From a virus, in IMG/VR virus record IMGVR_UViG_3300038701_000778, positions 1-40,622 of that record: a stretch of 40,622 nucleotides of DNA; one strand, written 5' to 3'. Under the pieces are notes generated by a model. It did no database searches and was not told where the DNA came from. It saw only the letters and a list, made by a program, of their open reading frames with translations. Shown piece by piece: positions 2,369-37,797 of this stretch. Every line of letters starts with the position of its first letter. The stretch's first letter is position 1. A program made the position numbers and the translations under genes.

Positions 2369-2631
2369 ACTTCCTCCATTTCCTCATCGTCCGGCAGCTT
2401 ATCATCTAACCACTCAAGCGCGAAGTGAGTATATGTGTTCTCGTAGTACTTCCCATAGGTCAGGAGTAGCGTGTCAAGACCATACGCGAAGGCAAGCTCG
2501 GGGTCTTCGACTTGCTTGTATACTTCATCGAGCACATAGAATACAAAGTCACGGGTATGGTCGAGCCGGTCGGCGAGGTCTGTTTGCTCGGGCTGTCCGA
2601 ACTTACCAAGAACATCATCTATCCAGCTCAT
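2365..2631 (-). CDS. Hypothetical acidic protein
   Basis: 88 aa, family not recognised. The sequence is acidic and helical, ends in a run of Glu and Asp, and has no membrane segment or cysteine motif. The ATG at 2631 is chosen because it overlaps the upstream stop as ATGA, the usual junction in this operon. An upstream TTG at 2637 has GGAGG 5 nt away and is an alternative. It sits between the sugar nucleotidyltransferase and the sigma-like gene. Confidence 0.7.
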   Translation of the reverse strand: MSWIDDVLGKFGQPEQTDLADRLDHTRDFVFYVLDEVYKQVEDPELAFAYGLDTLLLTYGKYYENTYTHFALEWLDDKLPDDEEMEEV

Positions 2632-3287
2632 AACCAATCATACCTCCGGTCGTTCTTGAAAGGGTCACCGCCTGGCATTGCTGGAAATCCTCCCCAATAC
2701 TCATACCAATGCTTAATGCGGTAGTAGTCGAGGATTGTATCAACGGTAAGCGAAAATGAATATTGTATTTCATCGTCAACTATCCACTCACATTGGAACA
2801 GGTCCGGGCGCATGTAGATCGTATTCGTCACATGGTCGCTTGGCTCGGCACGTTTCAACGCATCGGCACGGAATACCTCGGCGTAGATCCCGTATGCCGT
2901 CAGTGCTGAGGGTCTGCCGTCTACCAAGTACCCTACATAGTCTGCTTTGGTTTCCTTCGCCTTCTTGATGAGCATATTAGCTCGGTAAGGATCTACGAAC
3001 GGTTGATCACCGCATAGCCGGACGAAGTATAGGTCAGGGTCATCCCATGTCTTAGCCTCAGCCACGAACCTTTCCGACACAAGGCCCTGATACATGGCAG
3101 CAAATCCGGTGTACTTCGCTATCTCATACGAATTTTCATCAGTCAGGATGACGGTATCGTCAACGTCCATCTCGTCTGTTGCGTCGACTACGTGCTGTAC
3201 GATAGCCTTTCCGCCGATAGGGAAGAGTACCTTGTTCGGGAGCCGCTCACTACCGAGCCTCGCTTGTATGCCTGCTATGAATGTCAT
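2628..3287 (-). CDS. SpsF/PseF-like cytidylyltransferase
   Basis: 219-aa nucleotidyltransferase of the SpsF/NeuA/PseF type, which activates a sugar acid with CTP to the CMP-sugar. The N-terminus carries the family signature GIQARLGSERLPNKVL (residues 6-21), with the nucleotide-binding Arg and Lys, followed by LCGDQPFVDP, which contains the metal-binding Asp. Length is normal for the family. It overlaps the acetyltransferase upstream and the 88-aa gene downstream by ATGA. With the neighbouring PseB, PseC, PseI and GNAT homologues it would make the final activated nonulosonic acid. Exact sugar specificity cannot be read from sequence. Confidence 0.86.
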   Translation of the reverse strand: MTFIAGIQARLGSERLPNKVLFPIGGKAIVQHVVDATDEMDVDDTVILTDENSYEIAKYTGFAAMYQGLVSERFVAEAKTWDDPDLYFVRLCGDQPFVDPYRANMLIKKAKETKADYVGYLVDGRPSALTAYGIYAEVFRADALKRAEPSDHVTNTIYMRPDLFQCEWIVDDEIQYSFSLTVDTILDYYRIKHWYEYWGGFPAMPGGDPFKNDRRYDWL

Positions 3288-3841
3288 CTATTGTACCTCC
3301 ACACGTCGGCTGTAATATCGAAACCACGGGCATTATACCATATCCCGTTGTAGTATTTCCGGTGGTTCATATGATACGTGTTCCCACCATATTTACTCAT
3401 CTCTTTTAGCCAAAAACTCGGAGCGCTTGTAGTGTAGTACACCTCTCCCCATACTGTGTGGAGTCCAAAGGTGTCGAACGCCTTTTCAAGTATCAGTGCG
3501 AACGCCCCGCTGCCATACCCCCTGCTTCGCTCATCAGGTGCGATGAAAAGGCTAACCTCAGCGGTCCTGTTTACCCAATCGATGTTCTCTAAGCCTCCGT
3601 ACCCTACGAGCTTCTCCGGGTCGTGGATGCCATAATGGTCTATTAGTCGAGTCTCCGGGCCTATGTATATTTCAGCCATGATAGACCACATGTACATGGT
3701 ATGGGACTGGGATACCTTTTCGTAGTACGATTGCTGATTGCTCTCGGTCAGGTAGTCAGGAGTGCGGAACGGCGCTATGTCTTGGTTCCGCCACTCGGCG
3801 ATACGGTATAGATCGTTAAGTGTCAGTGCTTTTAGTCTCAT
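3284..3841 (-). CDS. GNAT acetyltransferase (PseH-like role)
   Basis: 185 aa GNAT-fold N-acetyltransferase. The acetyl-CoA loop is visible as DERSRGYGSGAFALIL (R-x-x-G-x-G/A), after a beta strand AEVSLFIAP, and the N-terminus RLKALTLNDLYRIAEWRN is typical of RimJ/PseH-type enzymes. PseH adds the 4-N-acetyl group to the amino sugar made by PseC, and its position between PseI- and PseF-like genes fits that role. An insertion around residues 55-75 is unusual. Start and stop overlap neighbours by ATGA. Acetylation of another substrate cannot be excluded. Confidence 0.82.
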   Translation of the reverse strand: MRLKALTLNDLYRIAEWRNQDIAPFRTPDYLTESNQQSYYEKVSQSHTMYMWSIMAEIYIGPETRLIDHYGIHDPEKLVGYGGLENIDWVNRTAEVSLFIAPDERSRGYGSGAFALILEKAFDTFGLHTVWGEVYYTTSAPSFWLKEMSKYGGNTYHMNHRKYYNGIWYNARGFDITADVWRYNR

Positions 3842-4482
3842 GGCCTCGCCTCGTTATAGAGTTGTGCTACATCAGTAGGAGTCACCGCGAACGGCCCCGC
3901 GTCCGGGTTATCCTCCGAGTGCTCAAGTACATAGTGTTTTTCAATGACCTTCGGCTTATACATCCTGTAAAAGTCCCATCCTACGGTATGGTCCGACACA
4001 CCTGACCTGATCTGGCCCGGTTCAAACCGCTCAACGTACGTCTCGGACTTTGCAGGGTATTCACTCACGCAACACAATGGAGTAGCTTCCCGACACAGCA
4101 CGAACTCAGCCGCAGACGGGACAGACTGAACAACCTCAACGTCATAGGCCCGTACAACGTCTGCAAGCTCCCCCAAGTCGGGACGGTTCGCAATCTTGAT
4201 GAATGGTACATCGTAGTTTATTAAGTGCATTAAAGAATCCATATCAAAGACACTCGCCGTAACCTTAAAGCCCATGTCACGACCATAGTGATAGGCAAAG
4301 TCAAACGCCGCGAACGTTAGCGGCTCATTCGGTGGCTCGTTTCTGAATAACTGAAACTTAACCACAGGTTGATAAAATTGGAAGACCGGAGGAATAGACT
4401 TGTCCAGCTCGTAGAACATATCCCGTATCGTGGATTCGTCATTGTGGCATGTGTTGCCGGAGCCAAAGTCAAGTATTAGCAT
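3838..4482 (-). CDS. NeuB/PseI-like nonulosonic acid synthase, short form
   Basis: 214 aa, TIM-barrel enzyme condensing phosphoenolpyruvate with a six-carbon amino sugar to give a nonulosonic acid. Family landmarks are VVKFQLF (40-46), FIKIANRPDL (94-103), CCVSEYPA (137-144), GVSDHTVGWD (161-170) and VIEKHYVL (179-186), including the His residues that bind metal in NeuB. The C-terminal antifreeze-like SAF domain of cellular enzymes is absent, and the barrel itself looks shortened. The ATG at 4482 follows GGAG by 7 nt and gives a family-like N-terminus, so it is preferred over 4512. Confidence 0.83.
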   Translation of the reverse strand: MLILDFGSGNTCHNDESTIRDMFYELDKSIPPVFQFYQPVVKFQLFRNEPPNEPLTFAAFDFAYHYGRDMGFKVTASVFDMDSLMHLINYDVPFIKIANRPDLGELADVVRAYDVEVVQSVPSAAEFVLCREATPLCCVSEYPAKSETYVERFEPGQIRSGVSDHTVGWDFYRMYKPKVIEKHYVLEHSEDNPDAGPFAVTPTDVAQLYNEARP

Positions 4483-4717
4483 ATTCTTCTCCAAGCTGCC
4501 TTTCCACTTCATCTTTTAGCAGTTGTAGCCTATTTACCATAGTATCTATCCATGCTTCTACATCCCACACCTTCCACTCAAGTTCTATACCTGGAGGAAA
4601 GGCGAGCGCGGCATACTTCACATTGCAGTTAGGCTCTGAATGGAATGCAATTTTCATGGTGTACCTGTCGTGAAGGTGATCTTTTACGATCTCAAAATCA
4701 TCAACGTATATCCTCAT
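4469..4717 (-). CDS. Hypothetical protein in the sugar operon
   Basis: 82 aa, not recognised. It starts at the ATG at 4717, which has a strong GAGGAGGT ribosome site 5-6 nt upstream. It is a mixed charged protein with a long C-terminal helix and no cysteine motif or membrane segment. It overlaps the NeuB-like start by 14 bp and the 50-aa gene upstream by 17 bp, so it is embedded in the nonulosonic acid operon. It is far too small to be the missing PseG hydrolase. Confidence 0.72.
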   Translation of the reverse strand: MRIYVDDFEIVKDHLHDRYTMKIAFHSEPNCNVKYAALAFPPGIELEWKVWDVEAWIDTMVNRLQLLKDEVERQLGEEYANT

Positions 4718-4853
4718 TCCCAACCTCCTCATACTTCATCACGCTATCGCCGTCCCTGTCAGGTGCTCGCTCTGCCTTGACGTACACTGTAGCATTTTCA
4801 GGGATCTGTGTATAGTCGATGGTCGTCCCGTAGGCGTATATCTCTACATCCAT
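4701..4853 (-). CDS. Small ORF, 50 aa, in the sugar operon
   Basis: The frame from ATG 4853 to TGA 4701 encodes 50 residues starting MDVEIYAYGTTID. It overlaps the end of the aminotransferase-like gene by 10 bp and the start of the 82-aa gene by 17 bp, closing what would otherwise be a gap in a fully packed operon. The ribosome site is only moderate (AGGATGGG). No family is recognised. The beta-rich pattern and fit with the overlaps are the only support. Confidence 0.55.
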   Translation of the reverse strand: MDVEIYAYGTTIDYTQIPENATVYVKAERAPDRDGDSVMKYEEVGNEDIR

Positions 4854-5491
4854 GAGTACCCATCCTGGAATATCGGGAACTGCGACAGGTCAGGATAGGG
4901 TGAGTTCGGCAAGTCTTCGTTATCGTCCGGCATCCCGGCCATGAGCATTAAACCCCGTGCGGCATCGTCAGGTTTCATGTGGCAGTGGAAGCCTGGAGTG
5001 ATAAACTTGTCTTTATCTGCCGCTGTCTTCGGAGTCCGCCCGTCAAAGCGCATCTTCCGTAGGTAGTGGTATGCATCCTCATTTTCAGTTAGGATCATCC
5101 CTCCACGGCCTATAGGTAGGTGCTTCGTCTCGTGGAATGACAAGCACCGTAGCTCGTCTCGGCCCATGTACATACCCTTTCTGAAGCGTCTCGCCGAGTC
5201 TATGATATTCGTATCAGAGTAGATACCATTTGCCCTTGCTCTGAAACCGTATTCACCAATCCATTCCTCGTCCACAAATGAGCATTTACCACCGAGCGCG
5301 AGGACTGCATATGGTACGCCTACGTATGTATACTTAGGCATCTCGATAAGGTCCCACCTATGGAACATCTTATCGTATGCAAGGCATAGCTTGATAGCGT
5401 TGGTACAGGAGTCAACAGCCACGCCATACGGAGCCCCAGCATACTCAGCAACGCAACACTCGAACTCATCAACAACGTCGTAGATGTGCAT
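4844..5491 (-). CDS. DegT/DnrJ/EryC1-type aminotransferase (PseC-like), short form
   Basis: 215 aa PLP-dependent sugar aminotransferase homologue. It shows the N-terminal signature EYAGAPYGVAVDSCTNAIKL, an Asp in NIIDSARRF at the usual PLP-nitrogen contact, and the Schiff-base Lys region LSFHETKHLPIGRGGMIL followed by GFHCHMKPDDAARGL. Family members are usually around 370-400 aa, so the C-terminal small domain is missing. PseC aminates the 4-keto sugar made by PseB, whose gene is directly upstream. The ATG at 5491 joins the PseB stop as TGATG, with GAGG 7 nt before it. Confidence 0.8.
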   Translation of the reverse strand: MHIYDVVDEFECCVAEYAGAPYGVAVDSCTNAIKLCLAYDKMFHRWDLIEMPKYTYVGVPYAVLALGGKCSFVDEEWIGEYGFRARANGIYSDTNIIDSARRFRKGMYMGRDELRCLSFHETKHLPIGRGGMILTENEDAYHYLRKMRFDGRTPKTAADKDKFITPGFHCHMKPDDAARGLMLMAGMPDDNEDLPNSPYPDLSQFPIFQDGYSWM

Positions 5492-6399
5492 CACGGGGCC
5501 TCGATAAGTTCTCTAAGCTCAGACGAATAAAGCTTCGGCGCATGCTCTGACGTGTACGGTTTCAATCCCCTCGGGCTTCCTCCGGCATCAGGCGGTAAAC
5601 TGTAGTACCATCCAATATCCACTGCTCGATATGCTTCATACGCTGTCATAAGTGTTTCGTGAATCTTCTCCCCTGGTGATAGGCCTCGCTCAGTTATTAC
5701 CGCATCCTCAGCGAATGCATAGGCCAAGTCCTCGACGTAGAATGCATTAGCCTTACTCACAAGCATCTCAGCCGTGGGATATTCACCGGTCAAAGCGTGA
5801 ATAGCCAACTCAATAGCGTACTCAAACGTTACGCCGAACCGAGTACACCGCCGGTCGGTCAATTTGAACACCCCATAATCAGCCATCTTGCGGAACACGT
5901 CAAACACAGACCCACGAGAACCTATGACATTGCCATACCGTACCACAGACTGGTTACCGTCAAGTGTGATCCGCTCTGCAAGCATCTTTGTAGCCCCGTA
6001 TGCATTGATAGGCTCACACGCCTTGTCTGTTGATAGCAGTACCATCCTCGCGCCGACACGGTTAGCAGCGTCGACCACATTAGCCGTCCCTGCTACGTTT
6101 GTCTTGATAGCCTCTCTCGGATCTCTCTCGGCTGTATGTACGTGCTTCAGCGCAGCTGAGTGGATAACGTACCGTACCCCTTTCATAGCCCGGTCAAGTC
6201 GCGCCTTGTCCCTCACGTCGCCGATCTCAAATGTGACCCTTTCGTCTTCGGTCTTGCGCATTTCATACTGCTTGTACTCATCACGGGAGTAGACAACAAT
6301 CTCACTTGGATCGTACTTTTCGAGTATGTACGGGATAGCATGAGAGGCAAAGCTCCCTGTGCCGCCTGTTATCAGCCATTTCGCATTAGCGTAGATCAT
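5491..6399 (-). CDS. UDP-N-acetylglucosamine 4,6-dehydratase (PseB-like)
   Basis: 302-aa extended short-chain dehydratase. The NAD-binding loop TGGTGSF is at 11-17, followed by VVYSRDEYKQYEMRK, IGDVRDKARLDRAM and HSAALKHVHTAERDPREAIK, all hallmarks of PseB/FlaA1. The catalytic region is LLSTDKACEPINAYGATK, with Asp-Lys at 126-127 and the Tyr-x-x-x-Lys pair at 134-138. PseB makes the inverted 4-keto-6-deoxy sugar that begins pseudaminic acid synthesis; retaining dehydratases such as CapD are the alternative. A good AAAGGA site lies 8 nt before the ATG at 6399, which overlaps the RNA ligase stop. Confidence 0.92.
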   Translation of the reverse strand: MIYANAKWLITGGTGSFASHAIPYILEKYDPSEIVVYSRDEYKQYEMRKTEDERVTFEIGDVRDKARLDRAMKGVRYVIHSAALKHVHTAERDPREAIKTNVAGTANVVDAANRVGARMVLLSTDKACEPINAYGATKMLAERITLDGNQSVVRYGNVIGSRGSVFDVFRKMADYGVFKLTDRRCTRFGVTFEYAIELAIHALTGEYPTAEMLVSKANAFYVEDLAYAFAEDAVITERGLSPGEKIHETLMTAYEAYRAVDIGWYYSLPPDAGGSPRGLKPYTSEHAPKLYSSELRELIEAP

Positions 6400-9256: not shown

Positions 9257-9963
9257 TTCCCTAACCTCGATACATCTATCATGCCCTCATCCTCCTGCAT
9301 CACCTTCGATACCTTATCACGTTTCAGCCAGTCTTCGCAAGCAGCGGCATAATCGCGGTACTGCCGTTTCCCGCCCTTCTTCGCATCCTCCCAGCAGACA
9401 ATTTTATCAAGGTAAGCATCGCACACTTTCAACCCATACTCCGATACGATACGCTCCCATCGAGATTTCCCAAGAGGCAGTGATAGAGTAGGGTGGCTTA
9501 TTTTCTCCGGTCCCTTCTTTTCTCTTATTGTCTTGTCTAGTCTAGTCTTTTCTTCACAATTGTCTGTGACAGTCTGAGACAGCAATTCTGGAGATTTTAT
9601 GTTGACATTTTTGTAGTTTTGGATGAGTGCTCGTATCTTCTTTGATCGCGTCTCCGACTGCTGTAAGTACCGGTATACCTTCGTGCACATGATTTTTCCC
9701 TCGATTTCCTCCTGTTCAATGAGCCCTTGAGCGATGAAATACCAGAGCATCTCCTCGATCTTAGCCGTGTCTTCGTTGAACAATTCAGCTATATCTGTGC
9801 TCGCCTCCTCAAGTATCGGGAGCGGTCGGTCGTCCTCAATATGCGCCGTGATAGACTCAAGGATGAAGTTGTACAGGCCATATCCCCTGAGCCCGTACTT
9901 GCTTATGACTCGGCGCATCTTAACGTCGTAGGTCATATTACTCATGTGTTTGAACCATTTCAA
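9253..9963 (-). CDS. DnaD-like replication initiator/helicase loader
   Basis: 236 aa. The N-terminal part (KWFKHMSNM, then KMRRVISKYGLRGYGLYNFI) matches the DUF4373/Lin1244-type winged-helix domain of phage replication initiators. The C-terminal WERIVSEYGLKVCDAYL to YRDYAAACEDWLKRD resembles a DnaD C-terminal region that binds DNA or helicase. The start is a TTG at 9963 overlapping the previous stop as TTGA. It gives the family-typical KWFKH beginning, whereas the next ATG at 9945 has no ribosome site. It likely loads the DnaB-type helicase encoded two genes downstream. Confidence 0.8.
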   Translation of the reverse strand: MKWFKHMSNMTYDVKMRRVISKYGLRGYGLYNFILESITAHIEDDRPLPILEEASTDIAELFNEDTAKIEEMLWYFIAQGLIEQEEIEGKIMCTKVYRYLQQSETRSKKIRALIQNYKNVNIKSPELLSQTVTDNCEEKTRLDKTIREKKGPEKISHPTLSLPLGKSRWERIVSEYGLKVCDAYLDKIVCWEDAKKGGKRQYRDYAAACEDWLKRDKVSKVMQEDEGMIDVSRLGK

Positions 9964-10745
9964 AACGGCAGTTCTCCCTGCATATCGTTACTCTTGCCTA
10001 TCGATTCAAAGAATGGGATGCATGCATTGAATCGCTCTTTCAGACCATCCCTATCGTATGACCATAGAAGATTCCAATCAATACCAATCCCCCTAATGTA
10101 TGCCCTTACCATACTACTGAACGGGTGATGATCCCAATTCAATGCAGATTCACTGTTGAACTTGATTGTCTTCCACGGCGTTATGACCATCCCAAATCTT
10201 GCCAGCCTAAATGCGTACGTCCCATCAACAGAATAGAATGGATAGGTTGATAGTATATCAGTGTCCATAAATCCGAAACCATGGGCCATACAATCATTAC
10301 CAGCTATCGAAAAGCATCTATCAAGGAATTGCTTCTTCTTTATCCTGCTCCCCTTGTTTATTGCAGCGAACCCCAAGTATTCCGAGTTGTCAATGTAATG
10401 ATTGAGCGTTCGTTCTGAATCCATCTCATGAAATACAGGGATAGGATTGAATCCGCACGATCTGCTATAATCGTAAAGTTCTATGCTCCTATCATTGTCT
10501 CCTATACTATCAAGCGCTGCATATGCATCAATCTGGTCTGCATTGATATTGATGAAATCGTGGTACTTTTCGATGTCTATCTTCCTCCCTTGTTTCCAAG
10601 CGACGTACCCTCCTGAGTCGATAAATAGACGCTTCGCCCATGATGGTCTATCAATGCGGAATACCCTATTTGAGAAAGCATGGAGCACGTTTATATCTGG
10701 CAATCCCTCCCAATTGAGAGGGACCGCAGAGTAGTAAATAATCAA
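9960..10745 (-). CDS. DpdA-like 7-deazaguanine DNA transglycosylase (TGT fold)
   Basis: 261 aa, related to tRNA-guanine transglycosylase. FIDSGGYVAW (41-50) corresponds to the DSGGYQ motif of TGT, with the general-base Asp at 43. Then come YAALDSIGDN, a GFAAINKGSR loop in the place of the substrate-binding GG motif, and AHGFGFMDTD with YSVDGTY, where D174 fits the nucleophile. The pattern matches phage DpdA proteins, which exchange guanine in DNA for a 7-deazaguanine base. It is directly downstream of a queuosine-precursor transporter. The start is TTG 10745 (TTGA overlap). A tRNA rather than DNA target cannot be excluded. Confidence 0.78.
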   Translation of the reverse strand: MIIYYSAVPLNWEGLPDINVLHAFSNRVFRIDRPSWAKRLFIDSGGYVAWKQGRKIDIEKYHDFININADQIDAYAALDSIGDNDRSIELYDYSRSCGFNPIPVFHEMDSERTLNHYIDNSEYLGFAAINKGSRIKKKQFLDRCFSIAGNDCMAHGFGFMDTDILSTYPFYSVDGTYAFRLARFGMVITPWKTIKFNSESALNWDHHPFSSMVRAYIRGIGIDWNLLWSYDRDGLKERFNACIPFFESIGKSNDMQGELPF

Positions 10746-11334: not shown

Positions 11335-13584
11335 TCAACTCCCGAATAATGTTTGTTCACCACGCTCACTTTGAGCAGCCATAAGATTCTTGCAAGCCTG
11401 CCTCCAATAGCTCTCTTTCAACTCCGCACCTATGAACCTCCTGCCCATCTTCACAGCCTCATACCCTTCAGATCCAATCCCGCCGAATGGCGACACTACC
11501 AAGTCTCCTTCGAGACTCCATAGCTGGAGAGCCCTATGGATAACCTGTAACTGCAATGGGGCAATGTGCCTTTCGTCCTTGTCATCCCTTGCACTTCTGT
11601 GCTGCAGCGTATCAGATGGATTTATGTCCATCCACACAGGAGATGCATATCGCTGCCATACGTCGATTGAGTATCGTTTGCCTTGGTTGGCAGTCTTTTT
11701 ACCTTCGTTTATATCAGTTCCAACAAAGTGATCAAACTCACCGGTGATAGGCTTAGTGTTTTCTCCAGGCTTTCGCATTGTGACAAGGTAGTCAGGAATT
11801 CCTTGGCGGCTCATTGCTGAGTCTTTTACAATCTGCTTATGGAGTAGCCCGAGCGCCTTCGTTCGCTGCATTGCAGTGACCGGATCTTTCCATATCACAA
11901 CCTCAGAATGGAAGATAAATCCCTCAGCTTCGTACATCCTGATAAGGTCGCCTCTGAAGTCTCTAATACCAATGTAGCCATTATGAGCTTTGCTCGTGGG
12001 GAGATTCATGCAATGGAACGATATGAGCCTACCTGGTCTGAGCGTACGGAATTGCTCCTTGACCAAGAACTTGTAATGTTCGTAGAACTCTCCATCGCTC
12101 TTGCTGTTTCCCATGTCTCGGTCGCTCGCGCTATACGTATACAGGGACGAGAACGGAGGAGAAAAGATCATGTAGTCAACAGAATCATCGTCAAGTTTCT
12201 TATGCACTTCAACGGTATCACCAAGGTACATAGTCCACGACTCGCCACTCTTCACATCTTCTCGGTAATCGTCGCTCGTCCGCTTGATCCCCTTGATGTT
12301 CTCTTCGTTTATTGCATGCATGTGCTGCACCATCTCCTCGGCCATCTTCATGGCATCGCGCTCCTTTCGTTCAATATTCCTAACCACAGCGCCCTCAAGC
12401 TCTGATACAATGATTTTGACATCAACAGGATTTTCCTGACCAAATCGCCAGCACCTGCGTACAGCCTGGTAGTATTGCTCGTAGCTGTCTGATAGCCCGA
12501 CGAATACAACATTATGGCACTGTTGGAAATTCAAACCATACCCAAACATAGAAGGCTTGGAAACAAGCACGCGAATAGATCCATTCGCAAACCCGATAGC
12601 AGAATTGATCTTGTGATCATTGCTGTCAGATCCCTTTACCTCAACTGCATCAGGTATCAGCTTCTTCAGTGTAGCGCTCTCGTCATTCCTATCGCACCAT
12701 ACCAGCCATTGCTCTGTGCTGTTGTTCACCATCTCAGCCGCTGCTTTAGCGCGGTCCTCGGTAGTGTCCCTCCTCGCAGCTTGCCGTTCTTGCAACGTCT
12801 GAGCCTCGACAGGGAATAGAAAACCATCCTGCGGTTCGTCATGTTGAATAGTAACTTGCTCTACAGATAGTTCCGGAAGAATGAATCTACCATCGTCGTA
12901 CCCAAGGTCAGACGGCTTGCGGATCATCACCGCCCATGATGCAACCCACCGCCAGAACTCGCTCTCAGCATGGCCTTTTAATCTCCATTTCTGTGTCTCG
13001 CCACCATCATGGACAAAAAACATACTGAGCATTTCAGTGCGCGTCATCGCACCTACGAACTCTGCGTGGTTTCCAAGCTCCATAAAATCATTAGGTGCAG
13101 GAGTAGCAGTGCAAGCCAACCTGAAAGGGATAGATCCAAATCGTTCTATGATCTCGGTCCTAATCTTGCCTGTGTAGCTCTTCAGAATTGAAGATTCATC
13201 AAGGACTATCCCTGTGTAGTTATCAGGGTCGAAATGCTCAAGGCGTTCATAGTTCGTTATTGATACCCTGGTAGGAACTTCCCCATGCTCTGAGTACTCC
13301 ATCTTGTCTTCGTGGAACTTCTCAGCCTCGCGGATTGTTTGAGATGCCACAGCAAGAGGAGCGACTATCAGCACATTGCCTGGTATGTGATGAGCCCATT
13401 CCAATTGCATAGGAGTTTTCCCCATGCCGCAATCTGCGAATATACAACCCCTGCCGCGCTTCAATGCCCATCTTACTATGTCAGCCTGGAAGTCGAAGAG
13501 CATATCGTTGATCTCTGGGATCTCTTTCAATCCGGTAGGCTTATCGTCTATAGACTTTTGCTTTAGAAAATCTTGATACGTCAT
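11335..13584 (-). CDS. SNF2-type helicase fused to DNA methyltransferase
   Basis: 749 aa, two enzymes in one chain. Residues 25-430 form a superfamily-2 motor: FADCGMGKT (Walker A, 49-57), IVLDESS (126-132), ACTATPAPND (157-166) and QAVRRCWRFGQ (373-383). Residues 445-730 form a DNA methyltransferase with SPPF (475-478, motif IV of N4-cytosine/N6-adenine enzymes), the HIAPLQLQVIHRAL region, and SPFGGIGSEGYEA (698-710, AdoMet motif I); the circular order IV then I is of the beta type. It probably protects phage DNA against restriction. No nuclease motif was noticed. It is the first gene of the modification cluster. Confidence 0.9.
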   Translation of the reverse strand: MTYQDFLKQKSIDDKPTGLKEIPEINDMLFDFQADIVRWALKRGRGCIFADCGMGKTPMQLEWAHHIPGNVLIVAPLAVASQTIREAEKFHEDKMEYSEHGEVPTRVSITNYERLEHFDPDNYTGIVLDESSILKSYTGKIRTEIIERFGSIPFRLACTATPAPNDFMELGNHAEFVGAMTRTEMLSMFFVHDGGETQKWRLKGHAESEFWRWVASWAVMIRKPSDLGYDDGRFILPELSVEQVTIQHDEPQDGFLFPVEAQTLQERQAARRDTTEDRAKAAAEMVNNSTEQWLVWCDRNDESATLKKLIPDAVEVKGSDSNDHKINSAIGFANGSIRVLVSKPSMFGYGLNFQQCHNVVFVGLSDSYEQYYQAVRRCWRFGQENPVDVKIIVSELEGAVVRNIERKERDAMKMAEEMVQHMHAINEENIKGIKRTSDDYREDVKSGESWTMYLGDTVEVHKKLDDDSVDYMIFSPPFSSLYTYSASDRDMGNSKSDGEFYEHYKFLVKEQFRTLRPGRLISFHCMNLPTSKAHNGYIGIRDFRGDLIRMYEAEGFIFHSEVVIWKDPVTAMQRTKALGLLHKQIVKDSAMSRQGIPDYLVTMRKPGENTKPITGEFDHFVGTDINEGKKTANQGKRYSIDVWQRYASPVWMDINPSDTLQHRSARDDKDERHIAPLQLQVIHRALQLWSLEGDLVVSPFGGIGSEGYEAVKMGRRFIGAELKESYWRQACKNLMAAQSERGEQTLFGS

Positions 13585-21600: not shown

Positions 21601-21691
21601 TGTTCTTGCTCCTATCCTTGCCTACATAATGGACAAGGTTCGCGACTGTGATAGTCACGTTCTCTTTCTTCTCTTCCTTTACTGCGTCCAT
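21581..21691 (-). CDS. Small ORF, 36 aa
   Basis: The frame from ATG 21691 to TGA 21581 encodes 36 very basic and charged residues (MDAVKEEKKENVTITVANLV and sixteen more). An AGGA site is 5 nt upstream. It overlaps the repeat-spike stop by 13 bp and the next start by 20 bp, the same style of junction as its neighbours. Confidence 0.5.
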   Translation of the reverse strand: MDAVKEEKKENVTITVANLVHYVGKDRSKNNETRKR

Positions 21692-23442
21692 ACTATCCTG
21701 CCTGTTTTTTTTGTGAATGTTGCTGACCCAGCCTTCCCGGTAAACGTCATTGTCACTATCCCATCTGCTATCGTGAAATTGACCGAGTCAAGTCCGTGCG
21801 CGTGCACCAAGTCCTGAATAGCCAACAGATGGCTCTGTGTGAGCTCTACCGTCCCTTGCGATTGCTCATGGGTAAGGTCATCTATAACGATAACATGAGC
21901 CTGTGTGTACCCTACGCCATCTAATGTATGAGCATGTGTAAGGTCGTCTACCGATACCGTTACCCTTGGCGACAGTGACGCCCCATCTACAACATGCGCG
22001 TGGTACATATCAGATACGGTGATATTGTGCCGTTGCGTCAGGGAAACGCTATCCAATACCTGTGCGTGGTACAGGTCATCTGCTATCGCGCTTATCTCAT
22101 CACTCAGCGAAACTGCGAGTGTATCAAGCTCATGAGCATGTGATAGCCCGTCTACACTAATACCCTGACGTTGTGTTAGGTAGAGCCCTTCGTCAGTCTC
22201 GATAAAATTGCCACTGAATGGAGGGCTCTCGATGTACGAGTACACTCCGTTGATATGGCCGTGAAACAGCCCGTCAATGGCTATGTTCTGGGCCTGTGTC
22301 AGTGTGACGGTATCCAACTCCCCAGCGTGGAACATCGAAGCTATCTCGATATTCTGGACTTGCTGTATCGCTACCGTGTCTAAAGCATGAGCGTGAAATG
22401 AATCAGCTACGGTTATGTTCTGGGTCTGCGTTATCGATACTGTATCAAGTGCATGGGTATGGTCTAATGCTCCAAGACTGACTGTTACGTCACCGCCACC
22501 AGCCGCTATATACTCATCAGCGCCGATACTCGGAGTCGCACCCCACGAATCGCCATCAATGTCAGTTGACGGCCCACCTGTTATGGTCGTACCGCCCTGG
22601 AACAGGTTTCCGGTATTGCCGAGCGTGAAATCGCCGGTTGCATAATCGGGGAACTCATTGGCCCAATCGCTTCCGCTCGGCGCTACCGCATTTGTGCCGT
22701 CGCCATCGTCGGAGGCGCAATGGTCTATTGTTATCGTTGCGTTAAAATCATCAGTGCAATTAAATACCGCGCAGTTCGTAGCGACGTTTGATCCAGAACT
22801 GGTCTGACCTATACCTGTGCCGCAGTCGTAAATAACAGTCTGATAGATTGAAACATTCCATGTGCTCGACAGATTTAACGCTGGCCCAGTAAATCCAGTA
22901 AAAATGCTGTTCTGGATAATGATTTCTCTGGTTGCCCCGGAGGAAAACGCGCACCGAATCGCCTCTCCGCCAGTTCCAGCCCCGATAGATCGGAACCGGC
23001 ACGAATCGAAGCGTATGTCCGCACCATCTCCGGCAGTCATGTTGAATAAGTACCGATTGCTCGATCCAGTATTTAGCTGGAACTGGATTCCCTGGAACCT
23101 GACATGATCAGTTCCTGAACTAATATCAACCTCTTCGAAACCTCCAATCTCAAGTCTATAGCGTGTATCGTCCCACCCTGTCTTTAAAGCCTCGTCTCCA
23201 CTCGCCGCCTCGATGAGAATATAGTTGCTGGATCCGGTGGTCCACCCATTCAGGTCCAGTTCAGAACTATCTATAGTACCAGCTGATGCTCGTACGTAGA
23301 CATGGTGCCAGTCACCAGCAGTTACAAGGTCAGTCTGCTCTGCCGCCTCCCATGCATCTAAAGAGGTATACGCATCAGTCCAGGAGGTCCCGTCTGCTGC
23401 GCCTGTTGCGTCTGGATCTACATAACGTACTACCTCTGCCAT
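21679..23442 (-). CDS. Tail spike/fibre with beta-helix and His-x-His repeats
   Basis: 587 aa. The N-terminal part (about 1-320) begins VVRYVDPDATGAADGTSWTD and continues with DIRFDSCRFRS and REIIIQNSIFTG rungs, the pattern of a right-handed parallel beta-helix. The C-terminal part (about 328-558) has ten near-22-residue repeats, each with HAH or a variant, LD, a V-x-LTQ strand and a D-x-h-x turn. Phage fibres with HxH motifs, such as T4 gp37, bind metal along a trimer. It is probably a receptor-binding fibre. The ATG at 23442 is chosen for family-like start and position after the previous stop. Confidence 0.78.
   Translation of the reverse strand: MAEVVRYVDPDATGAADGTSWTDAYTSLDAWEAAEQTDLVTAGDWHHVYVRASAGTIDSSELDLNGWTTGSSNYILIEAASGDEALKTGWDDTRYRLEIGGFEEVDISSGTDHVRFQGIQFQLNTGSSNRYLFNMTAGDGADIRFDSCRFRSIGAGTGGEAIRCAFSSGATREIIIQNSIFTGFTGPALNLSSTWNVSIYQTVIYDCGTGIGQTSSGSNVATNCAVFNCTDDFNATITIDHCASDDGDGTNAVAPSGSDWANEFPDYATGDFTLGNTGNLFQGGTTITGGPSTDIDGDSWGATPSIGADEYIAAGGGDVTVSLGALDHTHALDTVSITQTQNITVADSFHAHALDTVAIQQVQNIEIASMFHAGELDTVTLTQAQNIAIDGLFHGHINGVYSYIESPPFSGNFIETDEGLYLTQRQGISVDGLSHAHELDTLAVSLSDEISAIADDLYHAQVLDSVSLTQRHNITVSDMYHAHVVDGASLSPRVTVSVDDLTHAHTLDGVGYTQAHVIVIDDLTHEQSQGTVELTQSHLLAIQDLVHAHGLDSVNFTIADGIVTMTFTGKAGSATFTKKTGRIVWTQ
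21772..22461 (-). repeat. Ten imperfect 66-bp (22-residue) repeats coding for HAH motifs
   Basis: The coding repeats begin HTHALDTV and end HAHGLDSV. Most units are 22 residues, one is 24, and one carries a 19-residue insertion with PPFSGN. The protein pattern is better conserved than the DNA, so the repeats are old or kept by selection on structure. Confidence 0.85.
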
Positions 23443-23447
23443 ATCAT

Positions 23448-23891
23448 CTACATCCCCGAATCCCGCAAGCCCGTCGGGCGCATCGGGACCCAAGTCAAGA
23501 CCGGGCTGTACCAGAAAGGGCCGGAGAGAGTGTCCACCTCCGTTACTGAGTATGCCGGTTCACTGACTGTCACATTTCCGCCTCCGTCGGTGTGTACCGA
23601 TCGGACCGCTACCGCCCACTCACTCCGATACGGGAATGAGAGCTGTAACGATGTCGTTGCAGTCGAGCCTATGAGCGATAAGGACGTGACAGGCTGTAGG
23701 GTAATGTCACCTTGCGCCATGTCCCACGCGTATACCTCGTACTCTACAGCGTCACCAGGGAGAAATGCATTACCATCTGAATCTGTAGTTACCGCGCTCC
23801 ATTCGAGCGTAGGGGTAGACTCATAGTAGACCTGTTGGCCTGCCGCTAGAGCCGCGACGAGAAGTAGGGCGATGATTAGTAGGCGTTTCAC
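23448..23891 (-). CDS. Secreted beta-sandwich protein with signal peptide
   Basis: 147 aa starting with GTG at 23891 (GTGA overlap). The N-terminus MKRLLIIALLLVAALAAG is a clear signal peptide, with likely cleavage after AAG or nearby. There is no lipobox Cys. The mature part resembles a fibronectin- or Ig-like beta sandwich (AVEYEVYAWDMAQGD and WAVAVRSVHTDGG). An exported phage protein next to the lysis genes could act at the cell envelope, for example in lysis or superinfection exclusion, but its role is not known. Confidence 0.72.
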   Translation of the reverse strand: MKRLLIIALLLVAALAAGQQVYYESTPTLEWSAVTTDSDGNAFLPGDAVEYEVYAWDMAQGDITLQPVTSLSLIGSTATTSLQLSFPYRSEWAVAVRSVHTDGGGNVTVSEPAYSVTEVDTLSGPFWYSPVLTWVPMRPTGLRDSGM

Positions 23892-25774: not shown

Positions 25775-27610
25775 CTATGTCGTATCAAATGCAGCCGTTC
25801 CGGTATTCGTTCCAGAATCAGTATAGTTTGTCCCGTTGTTTGTGCTTCTCCCGCCTGAGATCTGGACACGGCTAACACCGGCAACCTCAACGCCTGTACC
25901 AGAACAGTTCCGCACATCTATCGATGATAGTTTTTGATCAGATGAAAATGCCTTTATGCCTATAGAATTCGACGCTGTTGCTGTGTTGTCAACATCATCT
26001 ATCATGGCTCCTGTGAGATTAGCCCCGCTTCCTGATAAGTATACCCCATATATAGTACATGATCCGTCTGTAGCGTCACAATTTGTTACCACAGTGTTGC
26101 TTATCTGGCACTGGTTACTTACAGAAGATACCATCGCAGACAACACGCCGGAATAGTCGGTGATTACGTCTCTAACAGTCACATTGTTTAACTGCGCTTT
26201 TCCAGTGAATTGTACAGATACACCGTATATCATTGGCTGCGTATTGCTGCTACCGTCTAGTACTATATCTGATAGTTGCTGTTGATTTCCGTTAGTTATA
26301 AGTACACCGGCAACACAATCAGTATCAGCCAGCAATATTTTACTTACCTGAGATCTATCGCAATTCTGCATTTCAAGCATGGAATCTGCAGAACCGACTA
26401 ACTTCACGTTAGATATGACTACATCATCACAATAATGCATCTCGACCAAATTATATGAGTTGCTACTGTCTGACCTTTTTACAGTCAAATCTTTTATTTC
26501 TATTCCGCTAACTTCGGAACCGGAAGATGCGAGCTGTTCTACTACATTATCTAATCCTGACATAACTATAGTCGTCGAATCACGCCCGGCACCTATTAAC
26601 GACACATTTTCCTTGAGGGTTATCACAGAGGTTGTGTTGAAATCACCCTGAGATAAGAACACAATCCCGCCGCCTTTCGAGGCCATAGCATCAATAGCTG
26701 CCTGGATCTGGACGTCATCATCCGTTCCATCACATACATAGCTCGTTTCCTCGGTGAAGTCTGCGGCTCCTACAAATACAGTATTACCCCGCGATATTTT
26801 TCTCCCTGAGTTGCCGAGAATCTTGAATGCAGCCTTATAGAAGCTCGTCTTTACCCAATTCTCTTCGACCTCACGGAACACACAATGAGTAAGCCCAGGT
26901 CCTCCTGGTCGCCGCTCGATGTCAACGGAGTAGCATTCTACAGTCGAGTCAATATCCTCGTAGATGCCTTTGTTATCGACAACGATAGATAGTGCATACC
27001 TATCCCCCGGTGTGATGTCGAACCGAGTCCCGTACAGAGACACACCGTAGATATGCTTTCGCTCACTCACAAGTATGCCGTGCCACTTGGCCCAATAGTC
27101 AGCGATAGCCTCGACCTGTTGCTTCCTCATGATCATATCGTTGGAGACTTCGAACGTCCGCACACCGGTGTTATAGATGTCCTCGTAGTCTACAAAATCA
27201 TCATGAGTAAACCCGTCGTCACCTGAGAACCGAGTAACGGTCTGACCTGCTATTGCTATCCCTACAATGTCTTGAGTAGACCCTGAACTGTTAGTCAACA
27301 GGATCTCTGCATACCCTGGACGTGACGTAGTATCGAATGTAGTCGTAGTAAACGTAGATGTCGGCTGCACAATTAGCCGTGCGCTTTTGACGCCGATTAT
27401 CTCTTTCCGACTTCTGCTGTTGGATACCTTTGATACCGATGACCCAGGAAGATTCTCCACAGGGCCGCCGCCCTTCTGTCCTATGAGATTAGCGTCTGTT
27501 ACTGGCTCGGTCCTTGTGTCTTGCCTCGGCCTATACCCTGCGGACCCTTGGTTGCTACCGCCGATACCGCCGGAGGCGCCTATAAGTGATGTGAAATCAA
27601 AGCTTGACAT
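25775..27610 (-). CDS. Tail spike with pectate-lyase-like beta-helix
   Basis: 611 aa. The N-terminal about 280 residues contain a Gly-rich start, then a beta-rich attachment region that includes SERKHIYGVSLYGTRFDITP. From about residue 290 the sequence is a Pectate_lyase_3-type helix: YVCDGTDDDVQIQAAIDAMA, then GGIVFLSQGDFNTTSVITLK, then many N/D-rich rungs to the C-terminus. Such spikes bind and often cut host surface glycans. It directly follows the tail-tip gene, with the ATG at 27610 two bp after the previous stop. The catalytic residues cannot be assigned by eye. Confidence 0.84.
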   Translation of the reverse strand: MSSFDFTSLIGASGGIGGSNQGSAGYRPRQDTRTEPVTDANLIGQKGGGPVENLPGSSVSKVSNSRSRKEIIGVKSARLIVQPTSTFTTTTFDTTSRPGYAEILLTNSSGSTQDIVGIAIAGQTVTRFSGDDGFTHDDFVDYEDIYNTGVRTFEVSNDMIMRKQQVEAIADYWAKWHGILVSERKHIYGVSLYGTRFDITPGDRYALSIVVDNKGIYEDIDSTVECYSVDIERRPGGPGLTHCVFREVEENWVKTSFYKAAFKILGNSGRKISRGNTVFVGAADFTEETSYVCDGTDDDVQIQAAIDAMASKGGGIVFLSQGDFNTTSVITLKENVSLIGAGRDSTTIVMSGLDNVVEQLASSGSEVSGIEIKDLTVKRSDSSNSYNLVEMHYCDDVVISNVKLVGSADSMLEMQNCDRSQVSKILLADTDCVAGVLITNGNQQQLSDIVLDGSSNTQPMIYGVSVQFTGKAQLNNVTVRDVITDYSGVLSAMVSSVSNQCQISNTVVTNCDATDGSCTIYGVYLSGSGANLTGAMIDDVDNTATASNSIGIKAFSSDQKLSSIDVRNCSGTGVEVAGVSRVQISGGRSTNNGTNYTDSGTNTGTAAFDTT

Positions 27611-27611
27611 A

Positions 27612-35174: not shown

Positions 35175-35773
35175 ATGTAGGCCGCTCGTCTCCACCGGTC
35201 GAGCATCTTAATCACCCGTGTTGGGTACTGATTGCTCCCGGCATAGGTTACCGAGTAGTCATCCAACCGCTCGGACTTTACGTCACTCGGCCTCGCGTCA
35301 TCCATGAGAAACCACAGCATCTTCGCCGCGGCAAGCCTTAACTCACGCGGCCACTTGACCCGGCTTATACGGATCATGCCAATGTAGTTGTCATCCTTTG
35401 TATCAGTCTGAGCCTGGTCTACAAATAGCCCATAGTCGTCGGTCTTCAGCGTTCCTGCAGAGGCCGAGCTAAGATGGTAGTAACCGACATTAGCCCCGCC
35501 ACCTTCTACAACAATGTCCATTGTGGAAGAAAAACCGTTCTCGACAAACTCCTGCTCGTCATCAGTGATGTAGTCGTAGGTATCGGAATCACCCTTGACA
35601 AAGGTGAAGTCACCAGAGGACCGACGGTACACATACTTGTCCTGAAACGCGTGACCAAGGTACGAGATAATGTCCCTCTCAACCAACGGTAATAGATAGG
35701 CTATTCGACTATCATAGTCTGAGTTGGTGATATTCAGGATGGTCTTTACGTCAGCCGCGCTCATGAGTGGCAT
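35171..35773 (-). CDS. Head-tail connector (gp6/gp15-like adaptor)
   Basis: 200 aa. It opens with SAADVKTILNITNSDYDSRI and AYLLPLVERDIISYLG, the helical start typical of gp6/gp15-type adaptors that bind beneath the portal. A beta insertion follows, and then a helical WPRELRLAAAKMLWFLMDD. It ends at RRAAYI, overlapping the stopper gene. Confidence 0.82.
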   Translation of the reverse strand: MPLMSAADVKTILNITNSDYDSRIAYLLPLVERDIISYLGHAFQDKYVYRRSSGDFTFVKGDSDTYDYITDDEQEFVENGFSSTMDIVVEGGGANVGYYHLSSASAGTLKTDDYGLFVDQAQTDTKDDNYIGMIRISRVKWPRELRLAAAKMLWFLMDDARPSDVKSERLDDYSVTYAGSNQYPTRVIKMLDRWRRAAYI

Positions 35774-36558
35774 TACTTCAACCCCGCTAAGTATTTCCTC
35801 AGATTGTCCGCTTCCATCGCCGCACCCTCGGTCCGGAGGATCTGCTGTTGTAGTGACTCAGCCTGTTTCCGAGCCTGCGCGAGCCCTTCGTTCAATCCCC
35901 GCTGCCGGTTCTGGACATAGGCGATGTGCTCTGACGGTTCCTCGTACCCATACTCGAATCGCGCCTTCATTAGCTCCGACTCTTTGGGTAGGTACAACCG
36001 CTTGATCTTACCATCGAGCATCATGCCGTGAATAATCCCGAGCGCCCACATACAGCTCGGCTGCTGTGAGTAGTACTCAGTTTCATGGGCCATGTGCACA
36101 CCGTACAGGCTAATGTCAGTGTATCCGTCGTAGATCGCTTTCAGGAGCATCCACGTTATCGTGTTTGATACCGGTAGCCTGTTATCAGACATCGCCTCAT
36201 CCAACATAAACATCTTTTTTACTTCATCACGCGGATACGGCGTCGAGTTTGGGATTTCATCGTAATGATCCTGCATGAAGATCGGCCCGTCAAACTCATT
36301 GAGCCGAGCCATTACATGCATATCTCCCCAATACCGGCGCGGGTGCATCTCAAAAAGCACATCTATCCGCTCTGCATCATCATGCGCCTGCGTTGGCCCA
36401 CAGCCCCACATCTCGTACTCTTCGAAAGCATATGGAGCTTGACCTAATGTACCCGCAGTACCAAGGATACAAAGCGGCCTTTTCTTAGCCGCCTTGCCCT
36501 TGGTCTTTGCCTTCAGGGCATCTTCCCCGATAAGGTCTTTAACAGTCGTACTTGGCAT
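35773..36558 (-). CDS. Rossmann-like DUF115/Maf-like protein, possible glycosyltransferase
   Basis: 261 aa, lying among the head genes. The N-terminal core LCILGTAGTLGQAPYAFEEY, a middle DGPIFMQDHYDEIPNSTPYP and SNTITWMLLKAIYDGYTDIS-LYGVHM resemble DUF115/Maf and GT42 sialyltransferase-like folds, where a similar 'GY-x-x-I-x-L-x-G' segment binds the CMP-sugar. The C-terminal about 60 residues are a coiled coil (EGLAQARKQAESLQQQI). Similar proteins occur in other phages with no known role. With the CMP-sugar operon in the same genome, transfer of a nonulosonic acid to the virion is an inference. The ATG at 36558 has AGGGGA 6 nt upstream. Confidence 0.6.
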   Translation of the reverse strand: MPSTTVKDLIGEDALKAKTKGKAAKKRPLCILGTAGTLGQAPYAFEEYEMWGCGPTQAHDDAERIDVLFEMHPRRYWGDMHVMARLNEFDGPIFMQDHYDEIPNSTPYPRDEVKKMFMLDEAMSDNRLPVSNTITWMLLKAIYDGYTDISLYGVHMAHETEYYSQQPSCMWALGIIHGMMLDGKIKRLYLPKESELMKARFEYGYEEPSEHIAYVQNRQRGLNEGLAQARKQAESLQQQILRTEGAAMEADNLRKYLAGLK

Positions 36559-36566
36559 CGTATCCC

Positions 36567-36938
36567 CTATGGAAGCAGAATCGCCCGCACCCTCGTCACC
36601 GAAGTAGACGCGGTACTCTTTGCCAAATTGATACGCCCGTTACTGTCCTTGAACCGGTGAGTCTCAAGAGGGCCGATAAGGTACTCCTTCGCCCCAGTTG
36701 TCGTGACAGTAAGATCCCCAATAGTACCACCGGTATACTGCGCGCCATCCTTGACGACAATGTTAGTAACCAGGGCCCCGGTCTGCTCGGCGACGAAAAT
36801 CACCTTGCTTGCATCCATATCACTCACGTCAAGGTACGCATAGGCACCGGTAGACGTAAGAGGTGGAGCGGCGGTAGAAAACAGATCCCCGTCGTTCCTC
36901 GTGGCTTCAACAGCCGTAATAGCACTTGATCCAGCCAT
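36567..36938 (-). CDS. Head decoration/fibre-like protein
   Basis: 123 aa, small and beta-rich with many Ala, Thr and Gly (VTNIVVKDGAQYTGGTIGDL and EYLIGPLETHRF). It sits directly after the capsid gene, where decoration or stabilising proteins are usual. AAGGAG lies 7 nt before the ATG at 36938. Family not firmly recognised. Confidence 0.7.
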   Translation of the reverse strand: MAGSSAITAVEATRNDGDLFSTAAPPLTSTGAYAYLDVSDMDASKVIFVAEQTGALVTNIVVKDGAQYTGGTIGDLTVTTTGAKEYLIGPLETHRFKDSNGRINLAKSTASTSVTRVRAILLP

Positions 36939-36948
36939 ATATTACTCC

Positions 36949-37797
36949 TTAGGTCGTGAGACCACTGAACTGAGCGTAAACAACACCGAGATGGTCAGGT
37001 CGAACAACCTTTGCACCGTAGATGTAGAGCCCCTTCATGCCTTCATCGAAATAGTCTTCACGCTGTACCGCTCGGATCTCAGAGACCTGACCGGCATACG
37101 CAATAGCATCACGAGCACCGAACATGATCCGGTAATCAGTACCATCATTAGAAACGTTGTTAGACTCGTACCACTCAAAACCCATACCAGTTACAACGTT
37201 GTTAAGCGCGGGACTGTTCGGTGTGTCGAAGGTGTTGGTGCCGTTGGTAATCTGGGCATAGCGGAGCAGCTGCATGAACCAAGGTGGCGCAACGCACCAC
37301 GGAATACCCATAACATCATTCTCTTTGAGATAGCGATGCATGTAGGTGATCAGGTCAGGCATCATATTCGCGTACAGGTTAAGACCAGTCGCGGAACTGC
37401 CGAGATTGGTGGCATTGGTAATACCTGCCTCGGTGTACTTCGCAGCAATGAACTGGTCAATGGTATTGCCTACCGCATGAGCAGCCTTACGCATAGCACC
37501 GTCCATGACAGACACATTCATCTGTGCCGCGTCTACGTCAGAGACCGTGAAAGCAAAATACTTCTTCTGGTCAATGACAAGCTCACGCTGTGCATCGTCG
37601 ACGTCCTGCCAAGTGACACCGGTAGATGTATAGCTCGATACATCGATGTCGCCAATTTCATTGATCTTCAGAACCTGACCGGCCTGAATCTCACCCTCGT
37701 AACTCGTATCTACAACCTGTGGAAATACAAACGCCTTGTCCGTGTTGACAATGAAGCGCCTACTCCACAGTGTCGGTTTGAAAAGTTCCAAACTCAT
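36949..37797 (-). CDS. Major capsid protein
   Basis: 282 aa. Its N-terminus (LELFKPTLWSRRFIVNTDKA) and the strands YEGEIQAGQVLKINEIGDID and LVIDQKKYFAFTVSDVDAAQ match the P22 coat/HK97-fold type of coat protein used by many siphoviruses. It directly follows the scaffold gene, as in other head operons. A strong GGAG site precedes the ATG at 37797. Confidence 0.9.
   Translation of the reverse strand: MSLELFKPTLWSRRFIVNTDKAFVFPQVVDTSYEGEIQAGQVLKINEIGDIDVSSYTSTGVTWQDVDDAQRELVIDQKKYFAFTVSDVDAAQMNVSVMDGAMRKAAHAVGNTIDQFIAAKYTEAGITNATNLGSSATGLNLYANMMPDLITYMHRYLKENDVMGIPWCVAPPWFMQLLRYAQITNGTNTFDTPNSPALNNVVTGMGFEWYESNNVSNDGTDYRIMFGARDAIAYAGQVSEIRAVQREDYFDEGMKGLYIYGAKVVRPDHLGVVYAQFSGLTT

Follow-up and report, generated by a model that had tools for sequence, protein, structure and literature searches.

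Miniature nonulosonate enzymes and a sialyltransferase-fold gene in the head block of a phage that may decorate its own virion

A sugar-enzyme operon upstream of the packaging genes

The window analyzed here is a stretch of viral DNA of 40,622 nucleotides (IMG/VR record IMGVR_UViG_3300038701_000778, positions 1 to 40,622). Five overlapping sugar-enzyme genes were found on its minus strand at positions 2628-6399. The operon runs from a PseB-like dehydratase and an aminotransferase through two small open reading frames (ORFs) to a synthase, a GNAT acetyltransferase and a cytidylyltransferase, and is followed by two more small ORFs and the terminase. Overlaps of 4 nt were present at the PseB/aminotransferase, synthase/GNAT and GNAT/cytidylyltransferase junctions. 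The small ORFs of 50 aa (4701..4853, minus strand) and 87 aa (4469..4732, minus strand) had no family match in the profile searches. The sequence-only reading had described five such genes, linked by short overlaps and lying just before the packaging genes. This description held, the same position was observed in related phages, and profile searches placed each of the five enzymes in its named family and none outside.

All five enzymes scored above the Pfam cut-offs and below the curated NCBIfam equivalog cut-offs. The best equivalog was PseB, PseC, PseH or PseI for four of them, and homologues of PseB, PseC, PseH, PseI and PseF of the pseudaminic acid (Pse) pathway are present as a set. The first gene (5491..6399, minus strand) encodes a PseB-like UDP-GlcNAc 4,6-dehydratase of 302 aa (TIGR03589, 1.2e-82; PF02719, 1.2e-65), with a TIGR03589 score of 277 bits against a cut-off of 407.75. 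Inspection of its sequence revealed the nucleotide motif ITGGTGSFAS and the catalytic STDK...YGATK. The PseH-like GNAT N-acetyltransferase has 185 aa (3284..3841, minus strand; PF13302, 1.2e-11; TIGR03585, the PseH model and best equivalog, 1.3e-6). The CMP-sugar cytidylyltransferase has 219 aa (2628..3287, minus strand; PF02348, 6.1e-16) and is of the SpsF/PseF/KdsB type. KdsB models scored better than PseF on the protein of the window, whereas its counterpart in the sister phage L014 was PseF-like (5.1e-48). The sister operons also contain a Pse-associated methylase that scored above its cut-off.

Genes of this kind are usually bacterial, and records labelled as phage that carry them can be bacterial as well: a CMP-sialic acid synthetase match in the phage collection was actually a contig of the Moritella chromosome. 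PseB matches in Staphylococcus and Listeria 'phage' records were left out, as these records were unannotated. The contig of the window, however, has a 126-bp terminal repeat, by which the genome is closed within the portal gene, and the operon lies at the same place, upstream of TerS/TerL, in L014 (capsid protein 80% identical) and in a second related phage, G026. The operon is therefore phage DNA; bacterial contamination was ruled out, and an erroneous join of bacterial sequence to a phage contig is an extremely improbable explanation. The gene order was the same in the related phages and is thus not due to chance. Since the operon keeps its site while the PseB, aminotransferase and synthase proteins of these phages are only ∼43-55% identical to those of the window, it has been maintained over a long divergence.

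Miniature aminotransferase and synthase

The aminotransferase gene (4844..5494, minus strand) encodes a compact PseC-like PLP aminotransferase of the DegT family (216 aa; PF01041, 4.1e-19; best equivalog PseC). About half of the normal length is missing, including the C-terminal small domain, and the open frames of complete cellular relatives measure 376-681 aa. The PLP residues Asp99 and Lys124 were invariant in a 16-member alignment (A6). The AlphaFold model (pLDDT 94.4, pTM 0.91) matched sugar aminotransferases with a Z score of 19.7 and PseC with 17.9, and the fold of the large domain was kept. In the phylogenetic tree, the mini-aminotransferases formed one separate clade with 100/100 support. 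They thus have the fold, the PLP lysine and aspartate and the UDP-sugar operon context in common with PseC, ArnB and perosamine synthase, but differ from these ∼375-aa enzymes in their length of ∼200 aa, the absent small domain and their separate position in the tree. The protein is rare in bacteria, where it was found in two Bacteroidia genomes (of 198) within chromosomal glycan clusters. These two genomes rule out that the mini-aminotransferase is restricted to phages.

The synthase gene (3838..4512, minus strand) encodes a compact NeuB/PseI-like nonulosonate synthase of ∼214 aa (PF03102, 1.2e-9; best equivalog PseI, 2e-8). Its start is probably at ∼4482, because the first conserved methionine, residue 11, lines up with the start of the relative in L014. 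About a third of the normal length is missing: the ORF stops at the end of the barrel, and the C-terminal SAF (antifreeze-like) domain was absent from all mini-synthases. K45, Q47, K99, S123, Y145, S166-D167-H168, E184, H186 and D197 were invariant from mini to full-length synthases, and these include the PEP- and metal-binding barrel residues K45, K99, S166-D167-H168, E184, H186 and D197 (14 sequences). The sugar-side glutamate that follows the K-I-A-S motif is gone, with KIANRP or KIAARP in the mini-synthases versus KIASFE in the pseudaminic acid synthase 8h2c. A comparison of catalytic residues, on which the family assignments of the sequence-only reading had been made to depend, thus found the key residues kept with the exception of this glutamate.

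Used as a single-protein query, the synthase had no match in viral contigs, and tblastn gave none in deposited phages; its relatives were found by alignment-based and aminotransferase-based searches instead. A profile of the mini-synthase and its phage relatives (A7) had 8h2c as its top match among PDB sequences (1.2e-63), and a two-sequence synthase profile (A4) alone reached 2.1e-5 against the PDB. Both mini-enzymes recur among unrelated phages.

A sialyltransferase-fold gene among the head genes

Within the head-gene block, the major capsid gene (36949..37797, minus strand; phrog_267, 5.2e-47) is followed by a gene for a small head protein of 123 aa (36567..36938, minus strand; phrog_24894, 5.2e-5). 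By its position, which is kept in relatives, this protein is decoration-like, and it is a candidate acceptor. The next gene (35773..36558, minus strand) encodes a protein of 261 aa, a putative CMP-nonulosonate transferase with a GT42/Maf-like fold. It is separated from the decoration-like gene by 8 bp and overlaps the head-tail connector gene by 1 bp.

The transferase candidate had no Pfam or PHROG match, and its structural model was only moderate (pLDDT 72). When the model was compared with the PDB by Foldseek, ranks 1-14 were all CstII or Cst-I (E 1.1e-5 to 4.7e-4, probability 1.00), while the first other match had an E value of 0.022. Z scores were 11.8 for CstII and 10.9 for the flagellin glycosyltransferase Maf, and lower for archaeal HPPK (9.9) and thiamine pyrophosphokinase (9.2). 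A profile of the family (A5) was searched against PDB sequences, and eight of the nine matches listed were GT42 sialyltransferases, at E values of 0.03-0.5 that are below significance (best 0.029); one designed protein was also among the matches listed, which spanned 0.03-0.8 and included no natural family but GT42. The candidate therefore resembles the GT42 enzymes CstII and Cst-I and Maf (5mu5) at the level of the fold (Foldseek, VIA-align) and, like them, is linked to CMP-nonulosonate genes; unlike them, it has no significant sequence match to the group and lies in head-gene blocks.

Relatives of the candidate adjoin head genes in phages whose capsids belong to three different families. In L048 and L050 a cytidylyltransferase gene directly adjoins the transferase gene, and G034 carries a cassette in the order NeuB, transferase, NeuC and NeuA (cytidylyltransferase), with NeuC above its cut-off. 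Cytidylyltransferase genes were present in 6 of the 16 records found with the transferase versus 1 of 45 viral records drawn at random (Fisher p ∼9e-4), and in 4 of 12 when the clade of the window was left out (p ∼0.006). Three more nonulosonate-operon phages, recovered with the aminotransferase query, also contained the transferase. Many phages with the transferase, most of them fragments, showed no nonulosonate genes (G033, G037, G040 and others). Conversely, the family was undetected in the nonulosonate-operon phages G016, G018, G022 and G025, so other acceptors or enzymes exist. Among 50,697 deposited phage records it was found in one Microcystis phage only, the cultured Mvi-Yong1342-1, and this near absence makes the family easy to miss.

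Proposed pathway and alternative readings

Our preferred interpretation, which we hold to be probable, is that the phage synthesizes a nonulosonate in CMP-activated form, most likely one of pseudaminic type, and that its own sialyltransferase-fold enzyme puts the sugar on the capsid or decoration protein. The PseB-like enzyme would dehydrate and epimerize UDP-GlcNAc, the mini-aminotransferase would aminate the product and the PseH-like GNAT would acetylate it. UDP would be removed by the host or some other enzyme, after which the mini-synthase would condense the freed sugar with phosphoenolpyruvate and the cytidylyltransferase would charge the nonulosonate to its CMP form. The GT42-fold protein, made together with the head proteins, would then move the sugar onto Ser/Thr of a head protein. 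We infer every chemical step here, as well as which sugar is made, what serves as donor and acceptor, and how the phage benefits.

Of the six enzymes of the bacterial pseudaminic acid pathway (PseB, PseC, PseH, PseG, PseI and PseF), five have a counterpart in the phage operon, but those of PseC and PseI are miniature and the set lies next to packaging genes. PseG (TIGR03590) was detected in none of 11 phage records, the window and ten other such phages, at E values up to 1. The near-complete set proposed earlier thus stands for five enzymes, two of them reduced in size. Given the shortened enzymes and the missing PseG, the product may instead be another nonulosonate or a different ulosonate, and a different intermediate may be the starting point or the end point of the pathway. 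We regard this as the less probable outcome, though one of some weight: the equivalog matches below cut-off, the lost SAF domain and glutamate of the mini-synthase and the KdsB-like score of the cytidylyltransferase all favor it. Against it stand the Pse equivalogs of four of the five enzymes, the top match of the mini-synthase profile to pseudaminic acid synthase, and the PseF-like gene and Pse methylase of the sister operons. The pseudaminic-type assignment of the sequence-only reading accordingly fits the families and these matches, while sequence does not fix the exact nonulosonate.

Nonulosonates are typical cell-surface sugars, and the operon could alter the infected cell, with CMP-nonulosonate feeding host transferases that act on flagella, capsule or LPS; this might, for instance, shut out other phages. 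The 261-aa gene would then be unrelated. The four operon phages in which the transferase family was undetected agree with such a role. It is nevertheless unlikely given that the operon has a late position, immediately upstream of the terminase and head genes, and that the head operon includes a sialyltransferase-fold gene whose family shows enrichment for cytidylyltransferase genes. Among the ORFs of the window no integrase was noticed, and long-term conversion of a lysogen is hence not obvious. It is similarly doubtful that the 261-aa protein is an inactive head protein with a nucleotide-sugar-transferase-like fold, or acts on another substrate, with the sugar operon serving something else. 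Its lower but real likeness to MptE-type archaeal HPPK and thiamine pyrophosphokinase, and its occurrence in phages without detected nonulosonate genes, would fit this; the Foldseek lead of GT42 (1e-5 versus 0.02) and the linkage to CMP-nonulosonate genes in several lineages argue against it. DNA modification was also considered as a use of the sugar in view of a nearby 7-deazaguanine gene pair; nothing connects the two. Among the three uses suggested earlier, namely virion decoration, alteration of the host surface and mimicry of host glycans, decoration of the virion is favored because the head-gene block contains a gene with the sialyltransferase fold.

Glycosylation of capsid and tail by phage-encoded enzymes is established in mycobacteriophages (PMC12363180). 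As proposed for the mycobacteriophages Che8, Corndog and Myrna (PMC12363180), a phage-encoded transferase would modify virion proteins here; unlike in those phages, the candidate has a sialyltransferase-type fold and the phage also encodes synthesis of an activated nonulosonate. No description of phage-encoded nonulosonate synthesis was found in the open-access literature searched. More broadly, we lean toward the view that diverse tailed phages carry an unrecognized sialyltransferase-fold family in the head block, some together with a compact CMP-nonulosonate pathway, and decorate themselves largely by means of their own genes. Naming this family would annotate a recurrent gene beside capsid genes that has no Pfam or PHROG entry. 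The mini-aminotransferase and mini-synthase pose the question of the minimum that two classic enzyme folds need for activity. If the proposal is true, virions display sialic-acid-like sugars that the phages make themselves; this would change the view of phage attachment, stability and recognition and would provide a defined set of small enzymes for testing.

Genome layout and the sugar operon

The window (40,622 bases) is a virus record from IMG/VR and carries its main genes on the minus strand. A 126-bp direct repeat at its two ends closes the sequence within the portal gene and the window is, therefore, a complete circular map. In the direction of transcription, an RNA ligase-like gene and a PseB-like gene of the operon precede an aminotransferase gene, two small ORFs and genes for synthase, GNAT and cytidylyltransferase; two further small ORFs and the small and large terminases follow. 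After the terminases come the portal, MuF, scaffold, capsid, decoration protein, a 261-aa protein and the connector. All five sugar proteins (2628-6399) were placed in the families named for them by the sequence-only reading. The RNA ligase-like gene (PF09414; 6386-7006, minus strand) is located directly upstream of the sugar genes and overlaps PseB by 14 nt.

The sugar operon belongs to the phage. Upstream of its terminases, a sister phage (L014/G001), with 80% identity to the window in the capsid protein and 70% in the large terminase, encodes PseB, mini-aminotransferase, mini-synthase and GNAT along with a PseF-like protein. The operon layout of G026 was the same, and on the fragment L021 sugar genes were followed by terminase. 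The sugar enzymes of the window and L014 shared ∼43-55% identity and retained their catalytic residues, as would be expected if they had been under long-lasting selection. Extended nonulosonate operons were present in other phages (L008/G002, L070/G019, L071/G020 and L077/G016). Among the added genes are those for HisF-like proteins, for an N-acetyl sugar amidotransferase, which in L071 exceeds the cut-off of TIGR03573, and for a Pse-associated methylase, which in L077 exceeds that of TIGR03587; they suggest nonulosonates with additional modification.

Elsewhere on the minus strand of the window, a DpdA-type, queuine tRNA-ribosyltransferase-like gene (9960-10745) adjoins a YhhQ-type preQ0 transporter gene (PF02592; 10742-11338), suggesting 7-deazaguanine DNA modification in this phage. 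A 749-aa protein that joins a helicase to an N6/N4 DNA methyltransferase is encoded at 11335-13584, and the pectate-lyase-like (25775-27634) and beta-helix (21679-23493) tail proteins are possibly polysaccharide-degrading tailspikes.

Miniature pathway enzymes

The aminotransferase has 216 aa, compared to open frames of at least 376 aa in its complete relatives from bacterial genomes. Its model was very confident (pLDDT 94.4, pTM 0.91) and matched sugar aminotransferases over the full length in Foldseek (7.5e-11), with structural Z-scores of 19.7 to sugar aminotransferases and 17.9 to PseC. Asp99 and Lys124 were invariant in an alignment of 16 aminotransferases. The mini-aminotransferases and two bacterial relatives formed a single clade apart from the full-length enzymes (support 100/100), in a tree whose long joining branches leave the root unsure. 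Miniature forms were rare in bacteria (2 of 198 Bacteroidia genomes) and were located in chromosomal glycan clusters (G046, contigs C261 and C230; G087, contig C49); they are a possible origin of the phage gene.

In the mini-synthase the PEP and metal residues are retained, but the SAF domain is absent and so is one conserved Glu. When a profile of this protein and its relatives was compared to PDB sequences, the top match was pseudaminic acid synthase. Searches of the window and ten other phages did not detect PseG, the UDP-sugar hydrolase of the bacterial pathway.

A candidate transferase among the head genes

The 261-aa protein (35773-36558), the proposed transferase, had no match in Pfam or PHROG. 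In a Foldseek search with its AlphaFold model (pLDDT 72, pTM 0.65) the top 14 matches were all CstII/Cst-I sialyltransferases (E 1.1e-5 to 4.7e-4; next match 0.022), and the Z-scores were 11.8 for CstII and 10.9 for Maf, a flagellin glycosyltransferase. A 21-sequence family profile run against all PDB sequences listed nine entries, none of them significant: eight from GT42 and one designed protein. The predicted fold and the weak sequence signal appear to agree.

In relatives of the window the transferase gene is flanked by decoration protein and connector, and L018 and G026 each have two copies. It likewise adjoins head genes in unrelated phages, whose major capsid proteins belong to phrog_10, phrog_267 or phrog_283. 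In G034 it is part of a NeuB-transferase-NeuC-cytidylyltransferase cassette, whose NeuC exceeds NCBI's cut-off, and in L048 and L050 it directly adjoins a PseF-like gene. Among records of at least 12 kb obtained with the transferase query, 6 of 16 contained a cytidylyltransferase, compared to 1 of 45 viral control records that were sampled with an arbitrary 15-mer (Fisher p ∼9e-4; ∼0.006 without the window's own clade; records not fully independent). Three further nonulosonate-operon phages, found with the aminotransferase query (G002, G019 and G020), also encode the family. Across 50,697 deposited phage records it was found once, in Microcystis phage Mvi-Yong1342-1 (L112; PP496355.1, 34781-35584), where it lies just before the gene for the small terminase and is annotated as 'type 11 methyltransferase'.

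Proposed glycosylation of the head

Virions are glycosylated by phage enzymes in mycobacteriophages (PMC12363180), and such glycosylation has been reviewed (PMC12691614). A search of open-access journal literature found no description of nonulosonate synthesis encoded by phages. Phages with the transferase and without detected synthesis genes may use host CMP-nonulosonate, or their records may be fragments. Since G016, G018, G022 and G025 have synthesis genes and no such transferase, other targets are possible. The analysis shows genes, folds, linkage and positions; the substrate, acceptor and benefit of the proposed glycosylation we infer. The simplest account is that the operon would make a donor sugar, which the GT42-fold enzyme would then move onto a head protein.
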